Shown: piece by piece, positions 2,653 to 20,309 of the stretch
Numbering within the stretch: position 1 is the stretch's first letter
Layout: every line of letters starts with the position of its first letter
Source: Gammaproteobacteria bacterium
Lineage (GTDB): Bacteria; Pseudomonadota; Gammaproteobacteria; GRL18
Direction: 5' to 3'
Assembly: GCA_026196615.1 (NCBI GenBank)
Contig: JAPHSW010000210.1
Location: 1 to 51,914 of the forward strand
DNA: 51,914 bases
Program-made: the position numbers and the translations under genes
Notes under the pieces: model-generated
Told to the model about the DNA's origin: nothing
What the model saw: only the letters and a program-made list of their open reading frames with translations
The model's database searches: none

Positions 2653-4122
2653 TTATTCAAAAACATCGAAAGTTATTTTCTCATCGCTTTCTGATATATC
2701 CTTTATTGACAATCCAGAATCAGAACCATCCCAAAGCAACGTTGAAGGTGTGGTATTGTGTGAAAGGGCTATTCCTTGCACATTATCAAACAAATCACCT
2801 CCATCTCCAGTGTTGTAGTTTCTCTCCAAGTCCAGTTGACCATCCGCTTGTAGCAAACCACATTGGTAATGCTTTGCGGGAGTTCCTCCTTGATATTCAT
2901 TGGAACCAAGCGTATCGCAATGATATACAGCCAGCCCTGAAGATGGTAGATGACTATCAAGCCCTGTTGTATGCCGGTTTTCAATCAAATAATACTCATT
3001 CAAATTATCCGTTTCGTATATATATACAGAGGAGTAATTACCTTGAGCAATTTCGTATTTCTTAGGTGAATTGACTTTTACTCTTTTTGGCCACCCAGCC
3101 AAATCTCTTAAGTACGCAGAAATGGAAGAAGGTGTTTTACCACTATCCAAATGGTTGCCTGAACTCATTAAGCAATAACGTCCCACTCCCGCACTTTTCT
3201 GAAAATCCCCATCACGTTTCCCATAATCGTAGAGATCTGGAAATCTGCATAACATATGCCCACTTTCATGACAAAATGTTCCGATACTTAGTCCATCAGC
3301 ATTGAGACCTAAGCTCGATATTTGATAAAAATTTGATGAATATCCATTACTATTCCAATCTAGCATGTGGTTATGAGGCCATAGCCATCCTTGATATAAA
3401 GTTCGACCAGCATACATAAAGCTTATTGCATCAATTACTCCTTCTCCAAGTGAGTCATATCGGGAAAGATCAATTCCTTGAGCAACTATTTCATTGAGAA
3501 CGTCAACAAAGAATGGTCTATTTACATAGTATTGACGATTCTGAGGAAGCATGATTGGACCCAACACGTCATTTGAGTAGTCCAATTCACCATTTGACAT
3601 ATTTGAAAAGTACTCACGAACTGAACAATAATTACCCTGACTGCTATAACTGTCGTCATTAAGCATCGACTCTACATCAGCTTTAGTTACCTCAGATTTA
3701 ACATCTGCAAACTCAACTATGATGGTAAGACCAATCACCGTTCCTGTTGAAACTCTACGGCCATTAAGCAGCCCATTGTTTGGGCCAAATGTTCTTAACG
3801 TGTCAAATGGTAAAACAGGTGATGGTTCTGGCTGCATAAGAGAAAAACGGCTATCAAACTTTCTCCGTCGAATTTCTGATGACTCCCTTAAATGTCTTTT
3901 TATTTTTTTGGGTGGTTTTCGATCAATCGTTATACGAGATGAAACCAAGTACCCATGTGCTTTTTCAGCAAAACAGAACTCCCCAATATCAGTGTCGTAT
4001 ATTGCGGTGTACCCATCTATCGTTTCACATCTTGAATAGAACTCATCACCATTTACAAGTAGCTCCACGTCTTTCCCGTTTTCTTGGGGGAAAATCAGTT
4101 TTTCGTCGAAAATTGAACTCAT
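2653..4122 (-). CDS. M6-family metallopeptidase without a signal peptide (489 aa)
   Basis: The zinc-binding motif HESGH lies at about residues 282-288 in the context GTFCHESGHMLCRFPDLYDYG, which is typical of M6 (immune inhibitor A-like) metallopeptidases. The first ~90 residues look like the usual M6 propeptide (GDEFYSRCETIDGYTAIYD), followed by a basic linker (KPPKKIKRH, RRRKF) where maturation could occur. The start is supported by GAGGAG five bases upstream of the ATG. M6 enzymes are normally secreted, but no signal peptide or lipobox is visible here, so export would need another route or the enzyme acts inside the cell. It lies among integron cassettes. The short downstream gap (2572-2652) contains a small hairpin (GACACG/CGTGT) but no clear attC. 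Confidence 0.85.
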   Translation of the reverse strand: MSSIFDEKLIFPQENGKDVELLVNGDEFYSRCETIDGYTAIYDTDIGEFCFAEKAHGYLVSSRITIDRKPPKKIKRHLRESSEIRRRKFDSRFSLMQPEPSPVLPFDTLRTFGPNNGLLNGRRVSTGTVIGLTIIVEFADVKSEVTKADVESMLNDDSYSSQGNYCSVREYFSNMSNGELDYSNDVLGPIMLPQNRQYYVNRPFFVDVLNEIVAQGIDLSRYDSLGEGVIDAISFMYAGRTLYQGWLWPHNHMLDWNSNGYSSNFYQISSLGLNADGLSIGTFCHESGHMLCRFPDLYDYGKRDGDFQKSAGVGRYCLMSSGNHLDSGKTPSSISAYLRDLAGWPKRVKVNSPKKYEIAQGNYSSVYIYETDNLNEYYLIENRHTTGLDSHLPSSGLAVYHCDTLGSNEYQGGTPAKHYQCGLLQADGQLDLERNYNTGDGGDLFDNVQGIALSHNTTPSTLLWDGSDSGLSIKDISESDEKITFDVFE

Positions 4123-8261: not shown

Positions 8262-9263
8262 TTATCTCAATTGAGTAATACCAACAAAGCTACCATTATT
8301 ATTTTCAGTCAGTTTACGCATTAGTGCAGAGAAGCGGGCCACATTGGTTTCAGTACCTGGGTGGTTAAATAAGACGGGGAATCCTACAGCATTGATTCTG
8401 ACTCGTTTTTTTCCTGAACGATTGGTTTTATTGAGCCTGGCAACCGTGTTGATTAATGACTGGATTGAGCCACGTGAAAAGTCGTCTCCAAAAATGTATA
8501 GAGATATTTGTTTATCGGCTGCATAAAAACTACGGATTGCTCGTGTAATGCCTTCTTCCGGTGATGAGTTTGAAAACGGTTCCCATGATGACAAGCGTTT
8601 TAAAATAGTTCGTCTTCTTCCAGGTGTATCTGGAATCCAACGACCCGAATACTGACTGAACATATAGTCTCCCATATCATTCATGACTTGAATACCTTTG
8701 ACATTAGGATGTATATCTAAAATTTCTTTCATTTTTTTGCGCACCATGGGCCATGCAAAATTTCTCATTGAACCAGAAGTATCAATAATAAAAATCACAT
8801 ATTCACTATCAACACTTATGCCACCCACGGTATTTTCTTTATTTGAAACAGGGGTGTTTTGTTGTAATCGTCTCATTTCTTCCGTTAGTTTTTGACGAGC
8901 ACGACTTAATTTTTCTTCAATAATAGTTTGTGCATTTAAGGTATTCTTAGAGTTTTTAAATTCACCTCGAATTTTATTTAACTCTGATGTTTTGTTTGAT
9001 AGTTGCTCTTGTGATTGTGCTAAAAACTGATCGGTTTGTGCCAATTCATGATGAGTGGTTTTAACTTGACCCTGAATTTTTTCAAGTTGTTGTTCTGTTT
9101 CAATCAGTACTTTTCTCAGATCTGTAGTACTTTCTTCAATAACAATGGGTTGTGATATTTTACTGATCACCAATAGTAAGATAATGGCACCAAATCCACA
9201 GGACACCACATCTAGAAAAGACAGACTAAAGATTTCAATATTTTTACGTTGTGATTTTTTCAT
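8262..9263 (-). CDS. Membrane-anchored vWA protein with TolR-like helix (333 aa)
   Basis: The N-terminus has one helix, FSLSFLDVVSCGFGAIILLL (about residues 12-31). It starts with FLD, as do the proton-conducting helices of TolR/ExbD (PLLD/PLID). A coiled coil follows (about 45-135), then a vWA domain with a complete-looking MIDAS: DTSGS at the first strand, a Thr in GITRAI and Asp in FGDDFS. Metal-dependent ligand binding is therefore plausible, outside the inner membrane. The gene is the last of a co-directional operon and overlaps the preceding vWA gene by four bases (ATGA), indicating near-stoichiometric expression. It is a paralogue of that neighbour but clearly diverged. The function is inferred from architecture and context. 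Confidence 0.85.
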   Translation of the reverse strand: MKKSQRKNIEIFSLSFLDVVSCGFGAIILLLVISKISQPIVIEESTTDLRKVLIETEQQLEKIQGQVKTTHHELAQTDQFLAQSQEQLSNKTSELNKIRGEFKNSKNTLNAQTIIEEKLSRARQKLTEEMRRLQQNTPVSNKENTVGGISVDSEYVIFIIDTSGSMRNFAWPMVRKKMKEILDIHPNVKGIQVMNDMGDYMFSQYSGRWIPDTPGRRRTILKRLSSWEPFSNSSPEEGITRAIRSFYAADKQISLYIFGDDFSRGSIQSLINTVARLNKTNRSGKKRVRINAVGFPVLFNHPGTETNVARFSALMRKLTENNNGSFVGITQLR

Positions 9264-10360
9264 GGCCAGTCACGACTTGGTGTTATAAAGGAACCTTTTG
9301 TATTAATGGCTAGTTTCCAAAAGAGCACTGCAGCCATTGGATCACCTTCCATAGGTAGCAAGATTGTATTTACTGGAATATATTTAGGGATACTTTTTGC
9401 GGCCTTTTCGAACAGTTTTACTCGTTCAAGAGAAGTAATTTTGCTTTTATTTGTTTTACTATTGCCTTGTGTTGGTAAGCCATCGGTGATCAAAATAATA
9501 TTATCAGGCTTTTGGGGTAATTTTTTTATGGCACTAAAGGCTCTTCTTAAATTAGTGCCTTTTTCTGGTACTAATTTTTCTAATTTATTAAACAAGCCAT
9601 TGACCTGAGCTGTATCTGTACTCTTTATCCAGTTAAATGAATTATTTGTAGCTAATGATTGAATATTGGTATTAAAACTGACTACCGCTAATTGACTGTT
9701 TGCAGGTAAGTTCGCAACCATCCATTGCAAGCTATTAATAGCTTGTCGCCATTTTCTTGCGGATCGTTTTACGCTATTTGATAAGTTTCTTTTTACAATG
9801 ATATTGACAATGGTCTCATCCAACATAGAAGCAGAACTATCAATTAAAAATAAAATTCTTTTTCCACCAAGTTTTAAACCAGTTAAATATTGACGATGTC
9901 CATCACCTTCATATTGTCGAACTTTATTACCTGATTCTTTAATCGCTGTTTCAAGTTTCTTTTTCTGCTGGCCTGTTTTTTTATCCATGGCTTTAATGTC
10001 ATTTTGTAATACATTAATGTGATCTTGCAATGCCTGGCTTTGTTGTTGTTCTTTTGTTTTCTTTATTTGTAAATCAGATGTTTCATCATTGATTTGCACA
10101 AATTCTTTTTTTAATCTCTCTATTTCTGCTTGTTTTTCCTCTAAGGTATTTTTCATATTTCTATGATAAATTTTAGCGGCTTTGGTTTCTTCTTTAACTT
10201 TATCAACTTCTGCCGTTAAATCTTCATTTTTTATTTTATTATCAGTAACAATATGGTTGTTAATGATCAGCACTAATAAAACAACAGCACCAAAACCACA
10301 AAACATGATATCTAAAAAAGAGAGGTTAAATGATGAGATACTTTTTTTTGTTTTTTTCAT
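9260..10360 (-). CDS. Membrane-anchored vWA protein with TolR-like helix and long coiled coil (366 aa)
   Basis: The helix FNLSFLDIMFCGFGAVVLLV (about residues 11-30) closely resembles that of the downstream protein, including the Asp expected to carry protons in TolR/ExbD/MotB partners. Residues about 40-150 form a highly charged coiled coil. The vWA domain from about 165 has a full MIDAS: DSSAS, the Thr in EKGTNLR, and TDG in ILITDGLPTQG. The predicted location is the inner membrane with the vWA domain in the periplasm. Adjacency to a MotA/TolQ-type channel gene and the shared Asp helix suggest that the two vWA proteins form the two-subunit core inside a channel pentamer. That assembly is inference by analogy with Tol, Exb, Mot and Zor complexes. 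Confidence 0.85.
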   Translation of the reverse strand: MKKTKKSISSFNLSFLDIMFCGFGAVVLLVLIINNHIVTDNKIKNEDLTAEVDKVKEETKAAKIYHRNMKNTLEEKQAEIERLKKEFVQINDETSDLQIKKTKEQQQSQALQDHINVLQNDIKAMDKKTGQQKKKLETAIKESGNKVRQYEGDGHRQYLTGLKLGGKRILFLIDSSASMLDETIVNIIVKRNLSNSVKRSARKWRQAINSLQWMVANLPANSQLAVVSFNTNIQSLATNNSFNWIKSTDTAQVNGLFNKLEKLVPEKGTNLRRAFSAIKKLPQKPDNIILITDGLPTQGNSKTNKSKITSLERVKLFEKAAKSIPKYIPVNTILLPMEGDPMAAVLFWKLAINTKGSFITPSRDWP

Positions 10361-10455: not shown

Positions 10456-11259
10456 TTACAGACTTCTTAAACGTGTGATCAAATTCATATCACAATAACT
10501 TTCTGAGTCTAAAACCAGACGTTCCTGTAGTAATTGTAATTGATGAATAAAAAACATTAATAAAATCGAAATCACTAAGGCAATAAAAGTGGAGTTAAAT
10601 GCCACACCTAATGATTCTGTTACACCGGTGATATCACCTTCCATTGCTCGATTTGCCTGTGATAAAGCATCACCAATACCTCGAACAGTACCAATAAAGC
10701 CCACAGAGGGAATTGCCCAGGCAATATAACGTATAATGGATAATTCTGTTTCTAATCGCTGAGATTCTGACTCACAAACATCTCTCATTGCGGTTGCTGC
10801 ATCATGCACATTGCGTGTTGCGGCAAAGCGTTGTACGGTCACTTTTAAAGCTTTGGGTAGTAAATAATGTTGTATATTGGCTGGTAATTCTGTCAGGCGT
10901 TTCAATAAGAGCTTTGTATCTTCAGGACCAATAGGTAAATCAATCGGTAGTTTCAATAAATCATCATTTAATAATTGATTTTGCTTCCAGGACAAAAAAC
11001 CTTTAAATCCCATAATTGAAAATGCCCAGAACATAAGTATAAAACAAGCCTCTTGTTCATAGTCTCTAACCACCACATAAAAATTTCTTTTTTGTATATA
11101 TGAGCTATCAGCAAGCATCATTTCATGTTCTTGTTGAATAAAACTATCCGCTTGTGGCCTGATAACAGAAATATAGACCGAGTGGACAATGATAAAAGCA
11201 ATGAGCAGGGAAAAAATTTGATAAATTAATTCAGTGGGTATATCTTTTCTACTATTCAT
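10456..11259 (-). CDS. MotA/TolQ/ExbB-family proton channel subunit (about 267 aa)
   Basis: I take ATG 11259 rather than GTG 11271 because the purine run AAAGTGG precedes it. Four hydrophobic regions are visible: about residues 12-35, 70-92, 178-200 and 220-245. The signature segment is IAWAIPSVGFIGTVRGIG followed by GVTESLGVAFNSTFIALVIS. It matches the two helices of TolQ/ExbB that line the proton path (APLLGLLGTVWGI.../GIAEALIATAIGL), with Thr residues in equivalent places. Family members energise TolR, ExbD, MotB or ZorB using the proton gradient. Here no classical ExbD/TolR gene is present, but the two vWA proteins just downstream carry a TolR-like Asp helix and are the likely partners. 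Confidence 0.85.
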   Translation of the reverse strand: MNSRKDIPTELIYQIFSLLIAFIIVHSVYISVIRPQADSFIQQEHEMMLADSSYIQKRNFYVVVRDYEQEACFILMFWAFSIMGFKGFLSWKQNQLLNDDLLKLPIDLPIGPEDTKLLLKRLTELPANIQHYLLPKALKVTVQRFAATRNVHDAATAMRDVCESESQRLETELSIIRYIAWAIPSVGFIGTVRGIGDALSQANRAMEGDITGVTESLGVAFNSTFIALVISILLMFFIHQLQLLQERLVLDSESYCDMNLITRLRSL

Positions 11260-11328
11260 TTTATTGACCACTTTTTTTGATTTTATATTAGGTTTATATT
11301 CGTTTTTTTATTGAAGATTAAATTGTTG

Positions 11329-11583
11329 TTATATATCAACCGGAAATGAAACTGAACTGTCCGCATCTATTTTTTCACTTGGTACAAAGGTCGGAGGCCA
11401 TTGTGTCTGTTGTTTTTCTCTATTGATTTTTTTTGCTCTATCTTCTGATGCAGATGAGCTATTGGTTTGTGTTTCTTTTTCTGCATAAACCATAGCACTA
11501 AATAACAAACTACTTAATAACAAGGTACTTATCACACTCATGACAAAAGAAGATAAAAGACTGTGTATTAATTTATATTTCAT
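11329..11583 (-). CDS. Small exported protein of the vWA operon (84 aa)
   Basis: A hydrophobic signal sequence of about 34 residues (FVMSVISTLLLSSLLFSAMVYA) is followed by a short polar tail rich in Ser, Lys and Gln that ends WPPTFVPSEKIDADSSVSFPVDI. The start codon overlaps the stop of the upstream FHA/PEGA/SUMF gene by four bases (ATGA), so it is translationally coupled. It is too small for a catalytic role and may be an assembly or plug peptide. No family is recognised. Confidence 0.7.
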   Translation of the reverse strand: MKYKLIHSLLSSFVMSVISTLLLSSLLFSAMVYAEKETQTNSSSASEDRAKKINREKQQTQWPPTFVPSEKIDADSSVSFPVDI

Positions 11584-14147
11584 GGTGCACTCCTGGCTAA
11601 TCTAAAACCAATATCCTTGGCTTTCTTTTTACTATAACTTCTATAGCTAAGTCTTAACTCAGTGATTGATGCATCTCGCCAACTTGAATCTCTTACTACT
11701 TTATGTGTTCCTTTTTTTGGACCTGTTGGATTAATAGCTTGTTTATTTTTTGAAAAGCTTGATATGGGTAAACCATAATTGGGTGAATAATAGTCCTGAC
11801 ACCATTCGGAAACATTACCACCCAAATCATAAAAGCCTGCATTGTTTTTTGTAAAAGTGCCAATGGGTGCTGATACTCCATAACTATCATTATAACCTTC
11901 AATCACATTGGCCACATAAGAGCGTGCCGATTCATCAGCAAAATTTCCACTCTTATTCAATGGTGGAAAAGAACCTATCCAGGGATATTTATTTTGGCTA
12001 TTACTTTTAGCGGCTAATGCCCACTCTGCTTCAAAGGGTAAACGATAGCCTGTATTATTTCCTGATAAATTAATCGGCACCATTTGTTGGTTCACCTCTT
12101 TATAATAAGGAGGTAAACCTTCTTTTTTACTAAGCCAATTACTAAATTTAGCGGCTTCATTCCAACTGACATTCACTATCGGTTGGTTTGGAGTATCCAG
12201 TGATAATACTTTCATACCTGAATTATGTGATGCTTTGTATTGCTTAAACTGTTTGTTACTCACTTCTTTATCAGACATGTAATAAGCACGAGTAATTTTC
12301 ACTGTATGTGCTCTTTCATTAGAACCACGTCCAGCTTCATTTTTCTTAGAACCCATAATAAATGATGCTGGTTTAACAAGAATCATTGTTTGGTTAATAC
12401 TATTCGTATAGTTCGATTTATTTTTCTCTAGAGTATTAGTTTTCTTTAAAGAAGGCTGACTTGTGACTTTTTTTATTATTATTGCCTTTGGTTTTGTTTT
12501 TGATAAATTAAAGCTGATATTTTTACTATAGCTACTGGCATTAATGGTTTTCGTTTGTGTTTCATAGCCTTTAGCTTTAACTGTCAATCTGTGTGTTTTT
12601 CCACTTAAATTAAATTTACCTGAGGATTCTTTTTGTTTTCGACCATCTATTATTAATTCAGCCTGAGTTGGTGTGACTGAAATAAACACAAGACCTTTTT
12701 CTGTTTTTAACTCAAATAATTGTTCCTGAGTTTCTTCCGCTTCTAGTTGAATGGTTTTATTTAAATCTTTATATCCAGTCAAACTCAATTGAATTTCATG
12801 ATCTGTATAAGAGCTTAACAGAATTGATTGAGGTGTTTTTCCAATATATTTTCCATTTATACGTAATAGACTGCCAATAGGATTTGAGGATATATTTAAT
12901 TTTCCATCTTTAGGGATCAATTTTTCAATATTTAAATTAAGTGTTTCACCAGAAACAATTTTAATATTTTTTATGATTTCTTTATATTTTTCTTTGCTAA
13001 CTTTAAGTTGATAATCACCAGATATTAATTCAATATCACTGAGTTTTGATTGATCTTTATTACTATAAATAAGCTTTGTATTATCAGTTTTGGAGTAAAT
13101 TTCAACTAAGACATTTTCTGTTTCACTAGTAATAGTTGCATATCCCCAATTGGGCTCTAATTCAAATTTAAAATTCTGTCTTTTGTTTTTACCTTCTACT
13201 TTAATCACTTGTTCAAATTTTTTATATCGTGGATTTTCAATGAGGAGTGTATGCTGACCTTTTTTAATTTCATAGGAAAGCTCTTCATTTAAGTTTGAAT
13301 CATTTCCAAGCAGTACATTATCAATATAAAGTGTATTATTCATTTTTGGATTGATATTAAATTCAATAATACCTGGCTTTTCTTTGAGCACATACGAAAA
13401 TTCATTATTATTTGTATCAATAGCTAATGAGTTATTAATCGTTTTATAATTTTTTTTATTGATTGTTAAATCATATTTACCTTTAATTAATAAAAATCGA
13501 TTATTGATCTTTAGTGTAGGAAATAATCCAGACAATTCAATTTCATCTGCCATTGGTTCTGTACGAATTATAATTGTCTCGGCAAATAAGACAAAGCAAG
13601 CCATCAGTAATAATATAAGCGAAAGCCCTATTAATAATAATTTTTTAGTTTTATTATTTATTGATTTCGGATTATCCTGTGTATTAATTATAGGAAGTAC
13701 ATCCACTTTCTTTTCATTTAATTGATTAGATTGTAAAGGAGGAGGGACAAGCTTAGGAATTTTATTATTTTCTATTGATGTTTTCTCTTCAACTTTGATT
13801 TGGATCTTATCACCAGAAACATTATATGTAATAATTTTATCTTCAATTTGAAGATTATCACCTGATTTTAACCAGACTGATCTATCAATAACTTCATCGT
13901 TATGAAATATTTGAGTTTCATTGCTATTAAATTTTTCTACAGCAGGTTGAAAGAAAATATGACCTTCATCTTCTGCTATATAAGCATAAATCTGTTTCTC
14001 TGTTTTATCATCTGAATTAATTTTCGATATAAATAAATGATTATTTTTCTCGCTATTAGATTGAATTGAAACTTCAAATGGTAATTCATCTGTGGTTAAT
14101 TGTTTCAGTTCATTTTGATCATCATCAATTTCAATAAATCGTTTCAT
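11580..14147 (-). CDS. FHA-like / TM / PEGA-repeat / SUMF-domain protein (about 855 aa)
   Basis: ATG 14147 overlaps the previous stop in an ATGA, so I prefer it to the upstream ATG at 14162. The order is: a cytosolic beta-rich domain (about 1-120) with FHNDEVIDRSVWLKSGDNL, reminiscent of FHA domains; a linker; one TM helix (LLLIGLSLILLLMACFVLF, about 170-190). Several PEGA-type beta repeats follow (for example LNISSNPIGSLLRINGKYIG and VFISVTPTQAELIIDG), ending in a C-terminal SUMF/FGE-sulfatase fold from about 590 (MILVKPASFIMGSKKNEAGR, GFYDLGGNVSEWCQDYY, DIGFRLARS). The active-site Cys pair of true formylglycine enzymes is not visible, since the segment reads KVVRDSSWRDASITELRLSYR, so the domain is more likely a binding module. 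An FHA end would link the machine to cytosolic Ser/Thr phosphorylation. Confidence 0.8.
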   Translation of the reverse strand: MKRFIEIDDDQNELKQLTTDELPFEVSIQSNSEKNNHLFISKINSDDKTEKQIYAYIAEDEGHIFFQPAVEKFNSNETQIFHNDEVIDRSVWLKSGDNLQIEDKIITYNVSGDKIQIKVEEKTSIENNKIPKLVPPPLQSNQLNEKKVDVLPIINTQDNPKSINNKTKKLLLIGLSLILLLMACFVLFAETIIIRTEPMADEIELSGLFPTLKINNRFLLIKGKYDLTINKKNYKTINNSLAIDTNNNEFSYVLKEKPGIIEFNINPKMNNTLYIDNVLLGNDSNLNEELSYEIKKGQHTLLIENPRYKKFEQVIKVEGKNKRQNFKFELEPNWGYATITSETENVLVEIYSKTDNTKLIYSNKDQSKLSDIELISGDYQLKVSKEKYKEIIKNIKIVSGETLNLNIEKLIPKDGKLNISSNPIGSLLRINGKYIGKTPQSILLSSYTDHEIQLSLTGYKDLNKTIQLEAEETQEQLFELKTEKGLVFISVTPTQAELIIDGRKQKESSGKFNLSGKTHRLTVKAKGYETQTKTINASSYSKNISFNLSKTKPKAIIIKKVTSQPSLKKTNTLEKNKSNYTNSINQTMILVKPASFIMGSKKNEAGRGSNERAHTVKITRAYYMSDKEVSNKQFKQYKASHNSGMKVLSLDTPNQPIVNVSWNEAAKFSNWLSKKEGLPPYYKEVNQQMVPINLSGNNTGYRLPFEAEWALAAKSNSQNKYPWIGSFPPLNKSGNFADESARSYVANVIEGYNDSYGVSAPIGTFTKNNAGFYDLGGNVSEWCQDYYSPNYGLPISSFSKNKQAINPTGPKKGTHKVVRDSSWRDASITELRLSYRSYSKKKAKDIGFRLARSAP

Positions 14148-15661
14148 ATTCTTTCTCTGCATTGAACATTGACCAAATACCCTTGATCATTTGCAGTAAT
14201 TTGTATGGTCTTTCTAAAATCTCTATAACCAGCTCTTGTGCCAACGATGGTATATTTACCTGGTCTCAATTGAATTTTCTTTTCTGATATTTTTCCAAAC
14301 TGTGCCACTTTATACATACTAACATCAGTTTTAGTATCAGATAATATTGTTACTTTAATCAGAGTGGATGCTTTTTCAATATTTTTTTCAGCAAGTGTTA
14401 TTTTATTATTAAGCTTGGGTGTTTTTGATGTTGAATAATATATATTTTGTTTTTCTTTAATTTCATTTTTTACAAAATTTAATGCTTTTTTGGATTTTTC
14501 AAATACTTTATCATCTTGTAAACGTTCAGGTTTATTTACTATGTCATCAATCAATTCATTTAAATGACTATATTTTTTAACACGTTCTTTCCCGACTATT
14601 GCTGTACTGCTATTAGAATCAATATTGAGTATTTTCTGGTAGGAATTTTTTGCATTTTCCCATTGCTCATTGGATTCCTGTTTTCTTGCTCTTATTTGTA
14701 ATTGTTTAATATTGAGACTTTTCTTTTCTTCATTAAATCTAAGTTCTAATTCATCAATAATTGGATCATTGGCATTCAAGCTTTTTAAATATTTTATTTT
14801 TGTTTTTACTAATGCGAGATCATAATTATCAAAAGCTTCAAGTACTTGACTTACTGTATTATTAAAATCAAATTCTAATTTTTTTTCTTTTATTTCTGCC
14901 TGTTTTTTATTAATTAGTTTTAACTCAGGTTCTATTTTTATGGCTTTATCTAAGCTTAATATAGCTTCATCAAGAAAATTATTTTTTTCTTGCTCTAGTG
15001 AGTTATTGTATAAAACCATAACTTCATCACGTGACTTTATTCTTTCTAATCCTCTTATGACTCTTTGATCTTCTTCATGAATTGCTTTCGCTTTATTAAA
15101 AGCAATTTCAGATTGTTCTAAATTTCCTTCATTAAGATTGGTTATTGCATCAAGAATTATTTTATTAAAAAAATCCTCTTTTTTTAATAAAGTATCATCA
15201 ATTTGTTTGATTGCTTTTTTATAATCACTTTCAGCTTCACTATAATTTTTTTCTTTAATTTTTTGTATTGCAGATACCTCATAAGCTAACGCTTTATCAA
15301 AGTCTTCTTTTGACCAGATAGACAGTTTATTATTTTCAGCATCAACTTTTTTTAACATCCAATCCAGTTCAATCTTTTCATTAAACTTTATTTCAGGTTT
15401 TGAGTCTGATAATTTTTTTTCTGAATGGGCTATTTGTGAATCAGTTCTTGCTGAATTCTCTTTAATGTTTGATTCTTTTTTAAGTAGGGCAGGGGATTCA
15501 GATTGCCGTATTGGTTCTGGTTTTAAGACTAGAGAAAAAATAATCAAAACCAGGCAAATAATAATACCCACTAAAACAAAAACTAATGTTCCTGAGTGGC
15601 TATTCTCATTATCAGCTTCAGTACTAACTGGTTTAGAAGGCGCTTTTAATACAGTATTCAA
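14144..15661 (-). CDS. Membrane-anchored TPR/coiled-coil protein with C-terminal PEGA-like domain (505 aa)
   Basis: A TM helix (GTLVFVLVGIIICLVLIIFS, about residues 24-43) follows a short cytosolic N-terminus. From about 110 to 400 the protein is helical with TPR-like repeats, for example NYSEAESDYKKAIKQIDD, NFLDEAILSLDKAIKIEPEL and QWENAKNSYQKILNIDSNSS. The last ~75 residues form a PEGA-like beta domain (LRPGKYTIVGTRAGYRDFRK), shared in type with the downstream protein. Most of it is therefore probably periplasmic and acts as a scaffold. Its stop overlaps the next start by four bases. No catalytic motif is seen. Confidence 0.75.
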   Translation of the reverse strand: MNTVLKAPSKPVSTEADNENSHSGTLVFVLVGIIICLVLIIFSLVLKPEPIRQSESPALLKKESNIKENSARTDSQIAHSEKKLSDSKPEIKFNEKIELDWMLKKVDAENNKLSIWSKEDFDKALAYEVSAIQKIKEKNYSEAESDYKKAIKQIDDTLLKKEDFFNKIILDAITNLNEGNLEQSEIAFNKAKAIHEEDQRVIRGLERIKSRDEVMVLYNNSLEQEKNNFLDEAILSLDKAIKIEPELKLINKKQAEIKEKKLEFDFNNTVSQVLEAFDNYDLALVKTKIKYLKSLNANDPIIDELELRFNEEKKSLNIKQLQIRARKQESNEQWENAKNSYQKILNIDSNSSTAIVGKERVKKYSHLNELIDDIVNKPERLQDDKVFEKSKKALNFVKNEIKEKQNIYYSTSKTPKLNNKITLAEKNIEKASTLIKVTILSDTKTDVSMYKVAQFGKISEKKIQLRPGKYTIVGTRAGYRDFRKTIQITANDQGYLVNVQCRERI

Positions 15662-15692: not shown

Positions 15693-16898
15693 TTAAAAGC
15701 CTGTTTCTTTATGATAAATTTCTTTTAATAATTGTTTCCATTTTGCATATTGCTGATCAGCTGAACCTGTTAATTTAGTAGTTTTACCCTCAATATCAAT
15801 AACAATGGGATCAATTTCTGTTGCAAAGGAATCACCTAATTCTTCTAGAGCTTCTTTGTTCATCTCACTTTCTTTACTGGTTTGTATACCACTATAAAGT
15901 GCATATCCGCCACCAGCAATCATGACCGTTCTTAAAGCGCCTGTTCTATCCACCACTTCAGAATTCTTTGATGCTCCTAATGCTATAGCACCAACTATTG
16001 CTGCTATTCCTAAGGCTTTTTGTGTTAATGCTTTATTTTCTATTTCTCTAATTGCTCCTAATTCTTCACTACGATACTTTCTCCAGTTATCATAGCTTTC
16101 CCACATATCGGTATAATAGATATCATAATAATTATTAATTGTATCAACTAGCATTTCATCTCGAGATTTAATTGCATTAATCCTTCCTATCATTGGATCA
16201 TCTGTAGAGGGCAGTTGATTAATTTTATATTGACCATTACTCTCTTTTTTTAAGTAATTAGAATAAATATCTGGTGACATATATTTTGCAAATCTTATTT
16301 GTGATATTTCTTTTATATTTTCAATTTCATTTGGTGTCAGTTTTTGCCTGTATTTAATAATATCATTTGATATTTCATTGTATACATTTTGAAATGTATC
16401 GTGTCTTTCTATTTCTGTTTCTTCACGATCTTCATTTCTAACCATATGGCTATATTCTTTTTCAAACCATTTTTTATTTGTCGCATCAAAAACTTGAATA
16501 TTCAGCTCAATAGTTTCACCATCAGATTCTAATATTTTACCTTTAATGAGTAATTCACTTCCTTCACTTTCCTCAGGTATCACTCGTACATTGCCCCAAT
16601 ATCCTGTACGTTGCATGGTATATTTTAAATGAATCGGCATAAATCGAGCTTCAGAATTTCTTATTTGTTCTGACAGTCCCTTTCTATCATCTTCATCTTC
16701 TGGCAAAACACCGGGATCAAATAATTTTATAGAAACATCAAGCAATTCTTCAGCATTTATTTCTTTCTGAGCCATCATTGGTTTTACTTTATCAGATGCA
16801 GTATATCCATAAGGATTTGGGATAGTTGTGCAAGCATTCAATAAGACTATCAATGAGATAATGACTAATAAATGAATAGTTTGTTTTATTTTTTTCAC
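15693..16898 (-). CDS. Lipoprotein of the vWA operon (401 aa)
   Basis: The signal sequence ends in LLNAC, a lipobox with Cys at about residue 23 followed by TTIPNP. This suggests an outer-membrane or inner-membrane lipoprotein facing the periplasm. The middle contains mixed alpha/beta sequence. Near residues 295-340 there is a glycine/alanine-rich hydrophobic pair (ALGIAAIVGAIALGASK and TVMIAGGGYALYSGIQ) that could insert into a membrane as a hairpin. No known family is recognised. It sits between the small exported protein gene and the TPR gene with gaps of about 30 bases, so it belongs to the same transcript and may tie the inner-membrane motor to the outer membrane. Confidence 0.75.
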   Translation of the reverse strand: MKKIKQTIHLLVIISLIVLLNACTTIPNPYGYTASDKVKPMMAQKEINAEELLDVSIKLFDPGVLPEDEDDRKGLSEQIRNSEARFMPIHLKYTMQRTGYWGNVRVIPEESEGSELLIKGKILESDGETIELNIQVFDATNKKWFEKEYSHMVRNEDREETEIERHDTFQNVYNEISNDIIKYRQKLTPNEIENIKEISQIRFAKYMSPDIYSNYLKKESNGQYKINQLPSTDDPMIGRINAIKSRDEMLVDTINNYYDIYYTDMWESYDNWRKYRSEELGAIREIENKALTQKALGIAAIVGAIALGASKNSEVVDRTGALRTVMIAGGGYALYSGIQTSKESEMNKEALEELGDSFATEIDPIVIDIEGKTTKLTGSADQQYAKWKQLLKEIYHKETGF

Positions 16899-16925: not shown

Positions 16926-17753
16926 TTATTTAATAGTATTCTGTTTATATCGATAATACTCATCCCAAAGTTTTTCTTTTAACTCTGGGTCTGTTTCTTT
17001 TTCAGCCGCTTCTTTTAATTGTCTGGAAACAATATCATCATCTATATTATCTAATTTTTTTCTTTTATATTCCCTGGAGCTACTACTTTGTTTACCCTTA
17101 CCTTTTGACTGACGAGAGCTTTTACTATTGCTCTGTGTTGTTGAAGACTTTCTATTTTCACTCTCATTTTTTGATCGGCTTTCATTTTGTTCATTGTTAT
17201 CTGATGATTTCTCACTACCAGAAGCTGATGAACTGGCTTGTTCAGTCATTCTAGTTTGACTTGTTTGAGCTATTTTTTCATCTTCTTCTAATAACATTTC
17301 ATCAAAATCACCTAATGCATTCATGAGTTCGTCATCCAGTGATTCAACTTTTTCATCAGAGGTAACATAGGTATTATTATCGAGAGGCTTACTAAGAGTG
17401 CCATTTTTTGAACAAGGTAAATCTTTTAGAAACTTTTCACCATACTGTTCAGCTATCTGAGTGCAATATTCATTAATACGATGAGAAAGATATTCAATAA
17501 AAACAGAATATTCTTTTTGATTATGGAGTAGGGTAGATTTATCTTGATTAAGATCTAAATTGGATAAAGCTTCTTGTGTTTTTCTTCTTGTCGTATCTAA
17601 AGCTTGAATATTTTCACTGAGAGCTTGATAATTATTATTTGGCTGGTTTATTGAATGAGCAGTATGGCTTGCTACCATTATGAAAATAAAGGTCACAAAC
17701 CATGTCACTTTACAAATGATTATTTTCCCTTTCATTTGGTATCCACCATTCAT
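16926..17753 (-). CDS. Exported low-complexity coiled-coil protein (275 aa), first gene of the vWA operon
   Basis: The N-terminus has a hydrophobic signal segment (VTWFVTFIFIMVASHTAHS). ATG at about residue 7 (MKGKIIICK) is an alternative start. A helical domain with two Cys (EYCTQIAEQYGEKFLKDLPC) follows, then an acidic stretch (LLEEDEKIAQ) and a long Ser/Asn/Lys/Gln-rich disordered region (SSSASGSEKSSDNNEQNE and similar, about 165-235). It ends in a charged helix (EAAEKETDPELKEKLWDEYY). The gene heads the operon, downstream of gyrB with about 100 bases between. It may be a flexible periplasmic linker; no family is recognised. Confidence 0.7.
   Translation of the reverse strand: MNGGYQMKGKIIICKVTWFVTFIFIMVASHTAHSINQPNNNYQALSENIQALDTTRRKTQEALSNLDLNQDKSTLLHNQKEYSVFIEYLSHRINEYCTQIAEQYGEKFLKDLPCSKNGTLSKPLDNNTYVTSDEKVESLDDELMNALGDFDEMLLEEDEKIAQTSQTRMTEQASSSASGSEKSSDNNEQNESRSKNESENRKSSTTQSNSKSSRQSKGKGKQSSSSREYKRKKLDNIDDDIVSRQLKEAAEKETDPELKEKLWDEYYRYKQNTIK

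Positions 17754-17852: not shown

Positions 17853-20309
<2,457 letters not shown>

Follow-up and report, generated by a model that had tools for sequence, protein, structure and literature searches.

A conserved eight-gene set pairing two different vWA proteins with a TolQ-like protein: a probable ion-driven envelope motor and a small secreted protein with an Asp-Ile tail

Results

Two tandem vWA genes lie within a conserved gene set

The window, that is, the whole stretch of 51,914 nucleotides that was analysed, carries two tandem genes on the minus strand, vWA_B and vWA_A, whose reading frames overlap by 4 bases. On sequence comparison, this pair is placed within a conserved eight-gene operon, in which the upstream neighbours run in the same direction and encode, in turn, a TolQ-like protein, an 84 aa protein, an 860 aa protein, a TPR protein, a 401 aa protein and a 275 aa protein. 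The features are listed below by window position.

8262..9263, minus strand: vWA_B, 333 aa, with an N-terminal transmembrane helix carrying Asp18, a coiled coil and a vWA domain
9162..9230, minus strand: pore-type helix segment of vWA_B, residues 12-34 (Asp18 codon at 9210-9212)
9260..10360, minus strand: vWA_A, 366 aa, laid out as vWA_B, with a complete MIDAS and a C-terminal WP
10262..10330, minus strand: pore-type helix segment of vWA_A, residues 11-33 (Asp17 codon at 10310-10312)
10456..11271, minus strand: TolQ/ExbB/MotA-family protein (PF01618), 271 aa, the likelier start being the ATG at codon 5
11329..11583, minus strand: small secreted protein, 84 aa, with a signal-like N-terminus, a variable middle and a conserved C-terminal tail
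11332..11391, minus strand: tail of the small protein, its last 20 residues, ending in FPVDI-stop
11580..14162, minus strand: FGE-fold protein, 860 aa, with one membrane helix, PEGA repeats and a C-terminal FGE-like domain
14144..15661, minus strand: membrane-anchored TPR protein, 505 aa, with a weak C-terminal PEGA match
15693..16898, minus strand: conserved lipoprotein-like protein, 401 aa, with a lipobox LNAC read by eye
16926..17753, minus strand: secreted-type low-complexity protein, 275 aa, the first gene of the set

Related loci were taken from genome contigs, and the best 80 of at least 568 confirmed loci were compared; these belong to Gammaproteobacteria, Desulfobacterota-type bacteria and one Planctomycetota bin. 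One carrier locus, L094, comes from Geothermobacter hydrogeniphilus HR-1, a harmless bacterium that can be cultivated. The other seven genes were all present in 36 loci of the best 80 of at least 568, and their order was the same in 36/36. Clustering of the best 80 of at least 568 loci gave no gene family downstream of vWA_B in more than 5 of the 80. The 401 aa lipoprotein-like protein had no Pfam match.

Two further genes of the window were noted by eye. The one directly upstream of the gene set (17853-20273) resembles DNA gyrase subunit B, and another (2653-4122) encodes a secreted-type, metalloprotease-like protein with an HESGH motif.

The two vWA proteins share an N-terminal segment, a coiled coil and a metal site

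An earlier note on this DNA had described two tandem genes with a nearly identical N-terminal segment. This was confirmed: within the first 40 residues, the pattern SFLDxxxCGFGAxxLLxxI matched exactly, as SFLDIMFCGFGAVVLLVLI in vWA_A and SFLDVVSCGFGAIILLLVI in vWA_B. The shared segment is more than chance, because vWA_A and vWA_B orthologues elsewhere keep it. The coiled coil that had been read after the segment was borne out by the AlphaFold2 model of vWA_B (mean pLDDT 75.0, pTM 0.51), in which residues 16-136 form a single helix, its start being of low confidence (pLDDT 41-76 for residues 1-30). Compared with solved structures, the model matched the vWA domains of Rpn10, CLCA1 and the integrin alpha1 I domain (best E 2.7e-6). 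Pfam VWA_2 matched vWA_A above the cut-off of 27 (1.1e-8, 36.1 bits) and vWA_B below it (1.3e-4, 23 bits).

Both domains had also been credited with a complete MIDAS. This held for all five residues of vWA_A (D174, S176, S178, T269 and D293), which were fixed across every readable copy. In vWA_B, D161, S163, S165 and D260 were conserved, and the Thr position, read by eye as S234, was Ser in 78/80 copies, Gly in one and a gap in one; the word complete is therefore slightly generous for vWA_B. The spacing from the helix Asp to the MIDAS was 142-145 residues in vWA_B (32 rows) and 153-157 in vWA_A (29 rows), a constancy that is as expected for measured rods.

The helix Asp is invariant and the two copies form an old pair

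Invariance of the Asp among homologues had been set as a check in the earlier note. Among the best 80 of at least 568 loci, Asp17 of vWA_A was Asp in 72/72 readable copies, a count that leaves out 7 of 79 copies without an N-terminus, and Asp18 of vWA_B was Asp in 80/80 copies. The Asp was also present in both vWA frames of a distant family, f70; there the Cys of CGFGA is sometimes lost, so that it is the Asp that stays constant, rather than the Cys.

The further check, that genomes always carry both copies, was likewise borne out. Both copies were found as separate frames in 111/119 TolQ-family loci, for which a TolQ relative scoring 200 bits or more was required and no frame was counted as both A and B. 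Leaving out copies with the same TolQ sequence (some contigs are shared between samples), the pair was found in 101 of the 108 distinct loci. Seven of the eight loci without a full pair are interrupted by an end of their own stretch of sequence. The eighth (L206, genome G621) has TolQ alone: the relative is strong (E 1e-98), and no vWA, FGE or tail gene was found in 13.5 kb of sequence. In an even phylum sample of 398 genomes, 20 matched vWA_B, of which four (G314, G141, G300 and G414) matched in the coiled coil only and were dropped. A second vWA copy was present in 15 of the 16 true vWA_B genomes, and the sixteenth match is cut at the contig start.

A tree of 36 vWA_A and 36 vWA_B sequences, drawn from every second of the 72 loci having both N-termini, placed A and B on opposite sides of one branch (SH-aLRT 100). 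The pair is old, because the tree splits A and B at this one fully supported branch, and as far as these sequences tell it is ancient and near obligate. The two genes overlap or abut in most loci.

The pairing bears on whether A and B work together or apart. Two separate motors might exist, with A-A and B-B homodimers in TolQ rings of their own that are used alternately: both chains keep the Asp and the vWA metal residues, one TolQ gene could supply two axles, and the dimer state of AglQ/AglS in Myxococcus xanthus, an older two-copy case, is given as unknown in PMC9389320. Such a division is hard to square with near-obligate pairing of genes that mostly overlap or abut, with stalk lengths that differ by a constant 11-13 residues, or with an A/B divergence that predates the split of the sampled genomes. 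We therefore hold two motors to be improbable and favour a single axle containing both chains.

A TolQ-family protein with two invariant pore threonines

The TolQ-like protein encoded directly upstream of vWA_A matched PF01618 at 8.1e-16 (58.4 bits, cut-off 22.9). In a profile alignment to 8odt_A that is weak overall (E 0.014), its Thr195 and Thr228 align with T145 and T178 of TolQ. Both positions were Thr in 65/65 sequences among the best 80 of at least 568 loci, and both pore Thr were kept in 14/14 of the separate phylum sample, family f70 included. A TolQ ring with two Asp helices would likely make an ion-driven motor of the 5:2 type. TolQR, ExbBD and MotAB likewise combine a TolQ-family ring protein with an Asp helix. 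Their axle chains carry an ExbD or OmpA-type periplasmic domain, whereas the two axle chains encoded in the window differ from each other and bear vWA heads on long rods.

The helix had been called TolR/ExbD-like in the earlier note. The part of this claim that stands is the position of the Asp, which lies in an N-terminal helix and whose register fits a two-row ExbD profile; homology was undetectable by sequence. Neither vWA_A nor vWA_B matched the Pfam profile of ExbD (PF02472) up to E 1. Comparison with the two-row profile, made from two of the genome's four ExbD genes, set Asp on Asp at a probability of 0.5%, and comparison with a single ExbD row put the Asp out of register at 0.04%. Because of these values, and with no PF02472 match, homology to ExbD/TolR is not claimed. 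The window's contig holds no ExbD gene, all four of the genome lying on other contigs.

Zorya defence was also considered and rejected, as ZorA matches were weak (2.4e-4 and 0.75) and ZorB gave none.

The FGE-fold protein is membrane anchored and possibly non-catalytic

The 860 aa protein matched PEGA (4.4e-32) and FGE-sulfatase (6.1e-39) in Pfam, and its model comprises a membrane helix at residues 179-193, many beta domains and an FGE-like end. A fold search with the FGE-like domain gave FGE enzymes and PvdO as the best matches, with PorK lower in the list. Cys occupied at least half of 33 rows at only two columns, positions 674 and 788, and the C-terminal SSWRD stretch contained no conserved Cys in the 33 rows. 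The FGE-like domain may be non-catalytic.

An FGE-fold protein beside a ring-and-rod motor recalls type IX secretion or gliding motors of the GldLM/GldK kind. That system combines a 5:2 motor bearing a long periplasmic rod with a partner of FGE fold that lacks the catalytic Cys, and PorK provides a precedent for the FGE fold as the structural hub of a motor-linked ring (PMC12421860). The FGE-like domain matched the GldK model at 3.5e-33 and PorK chains at 4.2e-27. The GldK score of 115.5 bits is far from the cut-off of 350, and on this ground the type IX identity was rejected; FGE enzymes score as well as PorK or better, and the parallel is loose because these scores cannot separate PorK-like from enzyme-like FGE domains. 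Moreover, no GldM, GldN or Sov family was matched by the eight proteins. PorK belongs to an outer-membrane ring, in contrast to the FGE domain here, which is carried on an inner-membrane-anchored PEGA rod. A motor of this kind is thus very improbable at the window's locus.

The N-terminus of the FGE protein would be cytoplasmic and FHA-like. Among 29 relatives, this part gave FHA matches in 7 and YscD-type matches in 8, and its profile matches solved FHA domains weakly (E 0.0026); the window's own N-terminus, taken alone, had no FHA match.

Kinase and FHA domains occur in some relatives

In a sequence search of the best 80 of at least 568 loci, a Ser/Thr kinase domain was fused to the TPR protein in 4/80. 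Pfam confirmed the fused kinase in L089, L204 and L227, with L109 under the cut-off, and found no kinase domain in the TPR protein of the window. A gene of about 470 aa stood between TolQ and vWA_A in 15/80 loci (best 80 of at least 568); its relative in L022 carries an FHA domain (5.2e-12) and that in L102 has no Pfam match. The TPR-fused kinase of some relatives, together with the cytoplasmic FHA-type domains, suggests control by phosphorylation.

The same domains could point to a sensor instead of a force machine, in which the state of the envelope is passed through the ring to cytoplasmic FHA and kinase parts. The 4/80 fused kinases and those of L204 and L227 would fit such a role, as would the FHA and YscD-type N-termini of the FGE protein and the PP2C and FHA genes of related one-copy TolQ-vWA loci. 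Most loci, and the window, are without a kinase, and the invariant ion-path residues speak for ion-driven work. We consider a sensor unlikely and retain the ion-driven motor as the working interpretation.

Weaker TolQ relatives in L216, L217 and L218 adjoin FHA and PP2C genes. In L216 (2122-5883), just one vWA protein occurs, whose Asp helix is similar (SMSALDLFASAMGA), together with a trypsin-FHA protein; possibly this one-copy locus is an outgroup to the A/B pair.

The small secreted protein ends in an invariant Asp-Ile

Apart from its end, the small gene is variable in both length and sequence. A gene with a PxDI-stop tail was found no more than 1.5 kb behind a complete FGE gene in 94 of 95 distinct loci, and the end was Asp-Ile in 94/94; in the remaining locus (L211), the tail gene lies farther behind the FGE gene. 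Among the best 80 of at least 568 loci, the 56 with FGE and TolQ had Ile, Asp and Pro at -1, -2 and -4 in 56/56, and Pro at -17 also in 56/56. The search pattern demanded Pro at -4 and an acidic-hydrophobic end, with Glu and other hydrophobics allowed, so the invariance of this Pro is partly built in, while Asp and Ile were free to vary. One other frame fitted the pattern in the 95 distinct loci (L071).

The tail gene was present in 14/14 loci of the phylum sample. In the class sample, 27 loci have a strong TolQ match, and all of them but L206 (26) carry the tail gene; among loci with weaker TolQ relatives it was found in 0/8. Of the 26, 24 were found by the main search and two (L205 and L207) have TolQ behind the vWA pair. 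Since the small gene follows the FGE gene even where TolQ has moved, as in these two loci, FGE is its fixed neighbour. In family f70 (12 loci), the small frame, counted from the first possible start, has 49 to 87 codons and seems to encode a signal peptide plus a tail of about 15 residues, for example SIQLNSAASFPVDI.

The FPVDI-stop DNA pattern gave 12 matches in 10 of 24 genomes. Ten of these were inside operons, and the other two (G000 and G007) close no reading frame. The single in-frame match in the window's genome is the tail of the small protein. Four of 14 operon carriers had no match, their contigs being cut before the small gene. The pattern was absent from 10 relatives without the operon (0 matches), and the reversed pattern gave 0 matches in the 24 genomes.

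A possible partner for the vWA heads

We propose, by analogy, that the tail Asp with the free C-terminus may be the ligand of a vWA MIDAS. The C-terminal Asp-Val of fibrinogen gamma, the end of its AGDV sequence, binds a MIDAS, which makes the tail a natural candidate: in integrin alphaIIb-beta3, these last two residues bind the MIDAS and, via water, the neighbouring metal, with the free carboxylate close to the latter, so that a C-terminal Asp-aliphatic end with Asp on the MIDAS metal is common to that complex and to the proposal (PMC4813479). The likeness serves as an analogy for a candidate ligand. A fuller version would be a motor with its own peptide ligand, whose Asp-Ile docks to the vWA MIDAS in an integrin-like, proton-driven and force-sensitive grip of the ion-driven rods on a tether; we offer it tentatively, as a doubtful possibility. 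MIDAS bonds in Mdn1, for comparison, may reportedly strengthen under load.

The tail could instead serve elsewhere, by binding the PEGA/FGE protein, by acting as an export, cleavage or sorting tag, or as a released peptide signal. The fixed neighbour of the small gene in L205 and L207 is FGE, not TolQ or vWA, and protein tails are a frequent site of protease or sorting tags. Against these readings, in the genomes tested the tail was seen only with this gene set (FPVDI-stop in none of the 10 relatives without the operon), and an invariant acidic residue beside MIDAS heads has an obvious candidate partner in them. These other roles, taken together, come close to an even chance.

The tail-bearing protein is a concrete candidate, and one that can be synthesized, for the thing gripped by the vWA heads, and it can serve to pick out the gene set in genomes. 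At 50-120 residues, such small proteins are encoded by genes that gene callers may miss.

Discussion

PMC12204202 (Mol Biol Evol 2025, msaf138) has already predicted such an arrangement, in which vWA proteins occur in heterologous pairs next to tolQ-like genes and have an Asp helix like that of TolR/ExbD. It describes this TPH-vWA family, with AlphaFold3 models showing a Thr ring, as having an unknown function. That family and the window have in common paired vWA proteins, an adjacent tolQ-like gene, no adjacent tolR/exbD, the Asp helix and the Thr ring; membership is judged here by described features, the exemplar of PMC12204202 being from Idiomarina. The reading given in the earlier note is therefore a rediscovery, and its asymmetric heterodimer, set against the homodimers of Tol and Mot, does not survive as a novelty. 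The main text of PMC12204202 contains no FGE, formylglycine, PEGA, kinase or small tail gene. Searches of open-licence PMC papers gave, by title, no envelope-motor paper for the tail, and no paper at all for the accessory genes. Novelty for a specialist seems to lie in the gene set as an operon, and chiefly in its tail gene. In M. xanthus, AglR-AglQ-AglS also joins one MotA-like protein to two MotB-like Asp-helix proteins; unlike the window's pair, AglQ and AglS are described with TolR-like peptidoglycan-binding domains and no vWA heads (PMC9389320).

Gene content and order, the conservation of the Asp, Thr, MIDAS and tail residues, and the obligate pairing were established here. We consider that the operon probably encodes an inner-membrane, ion-driven motor of the 5:2 type, with a heteromeric vWA_A/vWA_B axle whose heads would exert a pull on some partner in the periplasm or outer membrane. 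The TolQ-family protein would form the ring, presumably a pentamer, around an axle of one vWA_A and one vWA_B helix, each with its ion-binding Asp. The axle chains would continue as rigid coiled coils of fixed length, about 15 nm at 1.5 angstrom per residue, and these rods would hold both vWA heads far out in the periplasm. The PEGA-repeat protein may be a second membrane-anchored rod that brings its FGE-like domain about as far out, while the small secreted, TPR and lipoprotein-like proteins would make up the rest of the periplasmic side. Driven by ion flow, the axle would turn or rock, and the heads would thereby pull the partner through the MIDAS metal. In this scheme, we infer the motor's stoichiometry, ion flow, movement, partner and function in the cell.

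Drawings of a 5:2 motor normally show an axle of two identical chains. With an old and obligate pair of unlike chains, it becomes possible to test whether these motors can be mechanically asymmetric.

Two minor observations concern vWA_A. Its frame closes with WP-stop in 79/79 frames among the best 80 of at least 568 loci, and also in 14 phylum-sample frames, which is the second conserved C-terminus of the gene set. At the other end, in most vWA_A frames of family f70 (L143, L144, L145 and L148-L154) the Asp helix is not preceded by an ATG or by a usable GTG/TTG, and translation may begin at a conserved Leu codon, which is CTG where read.
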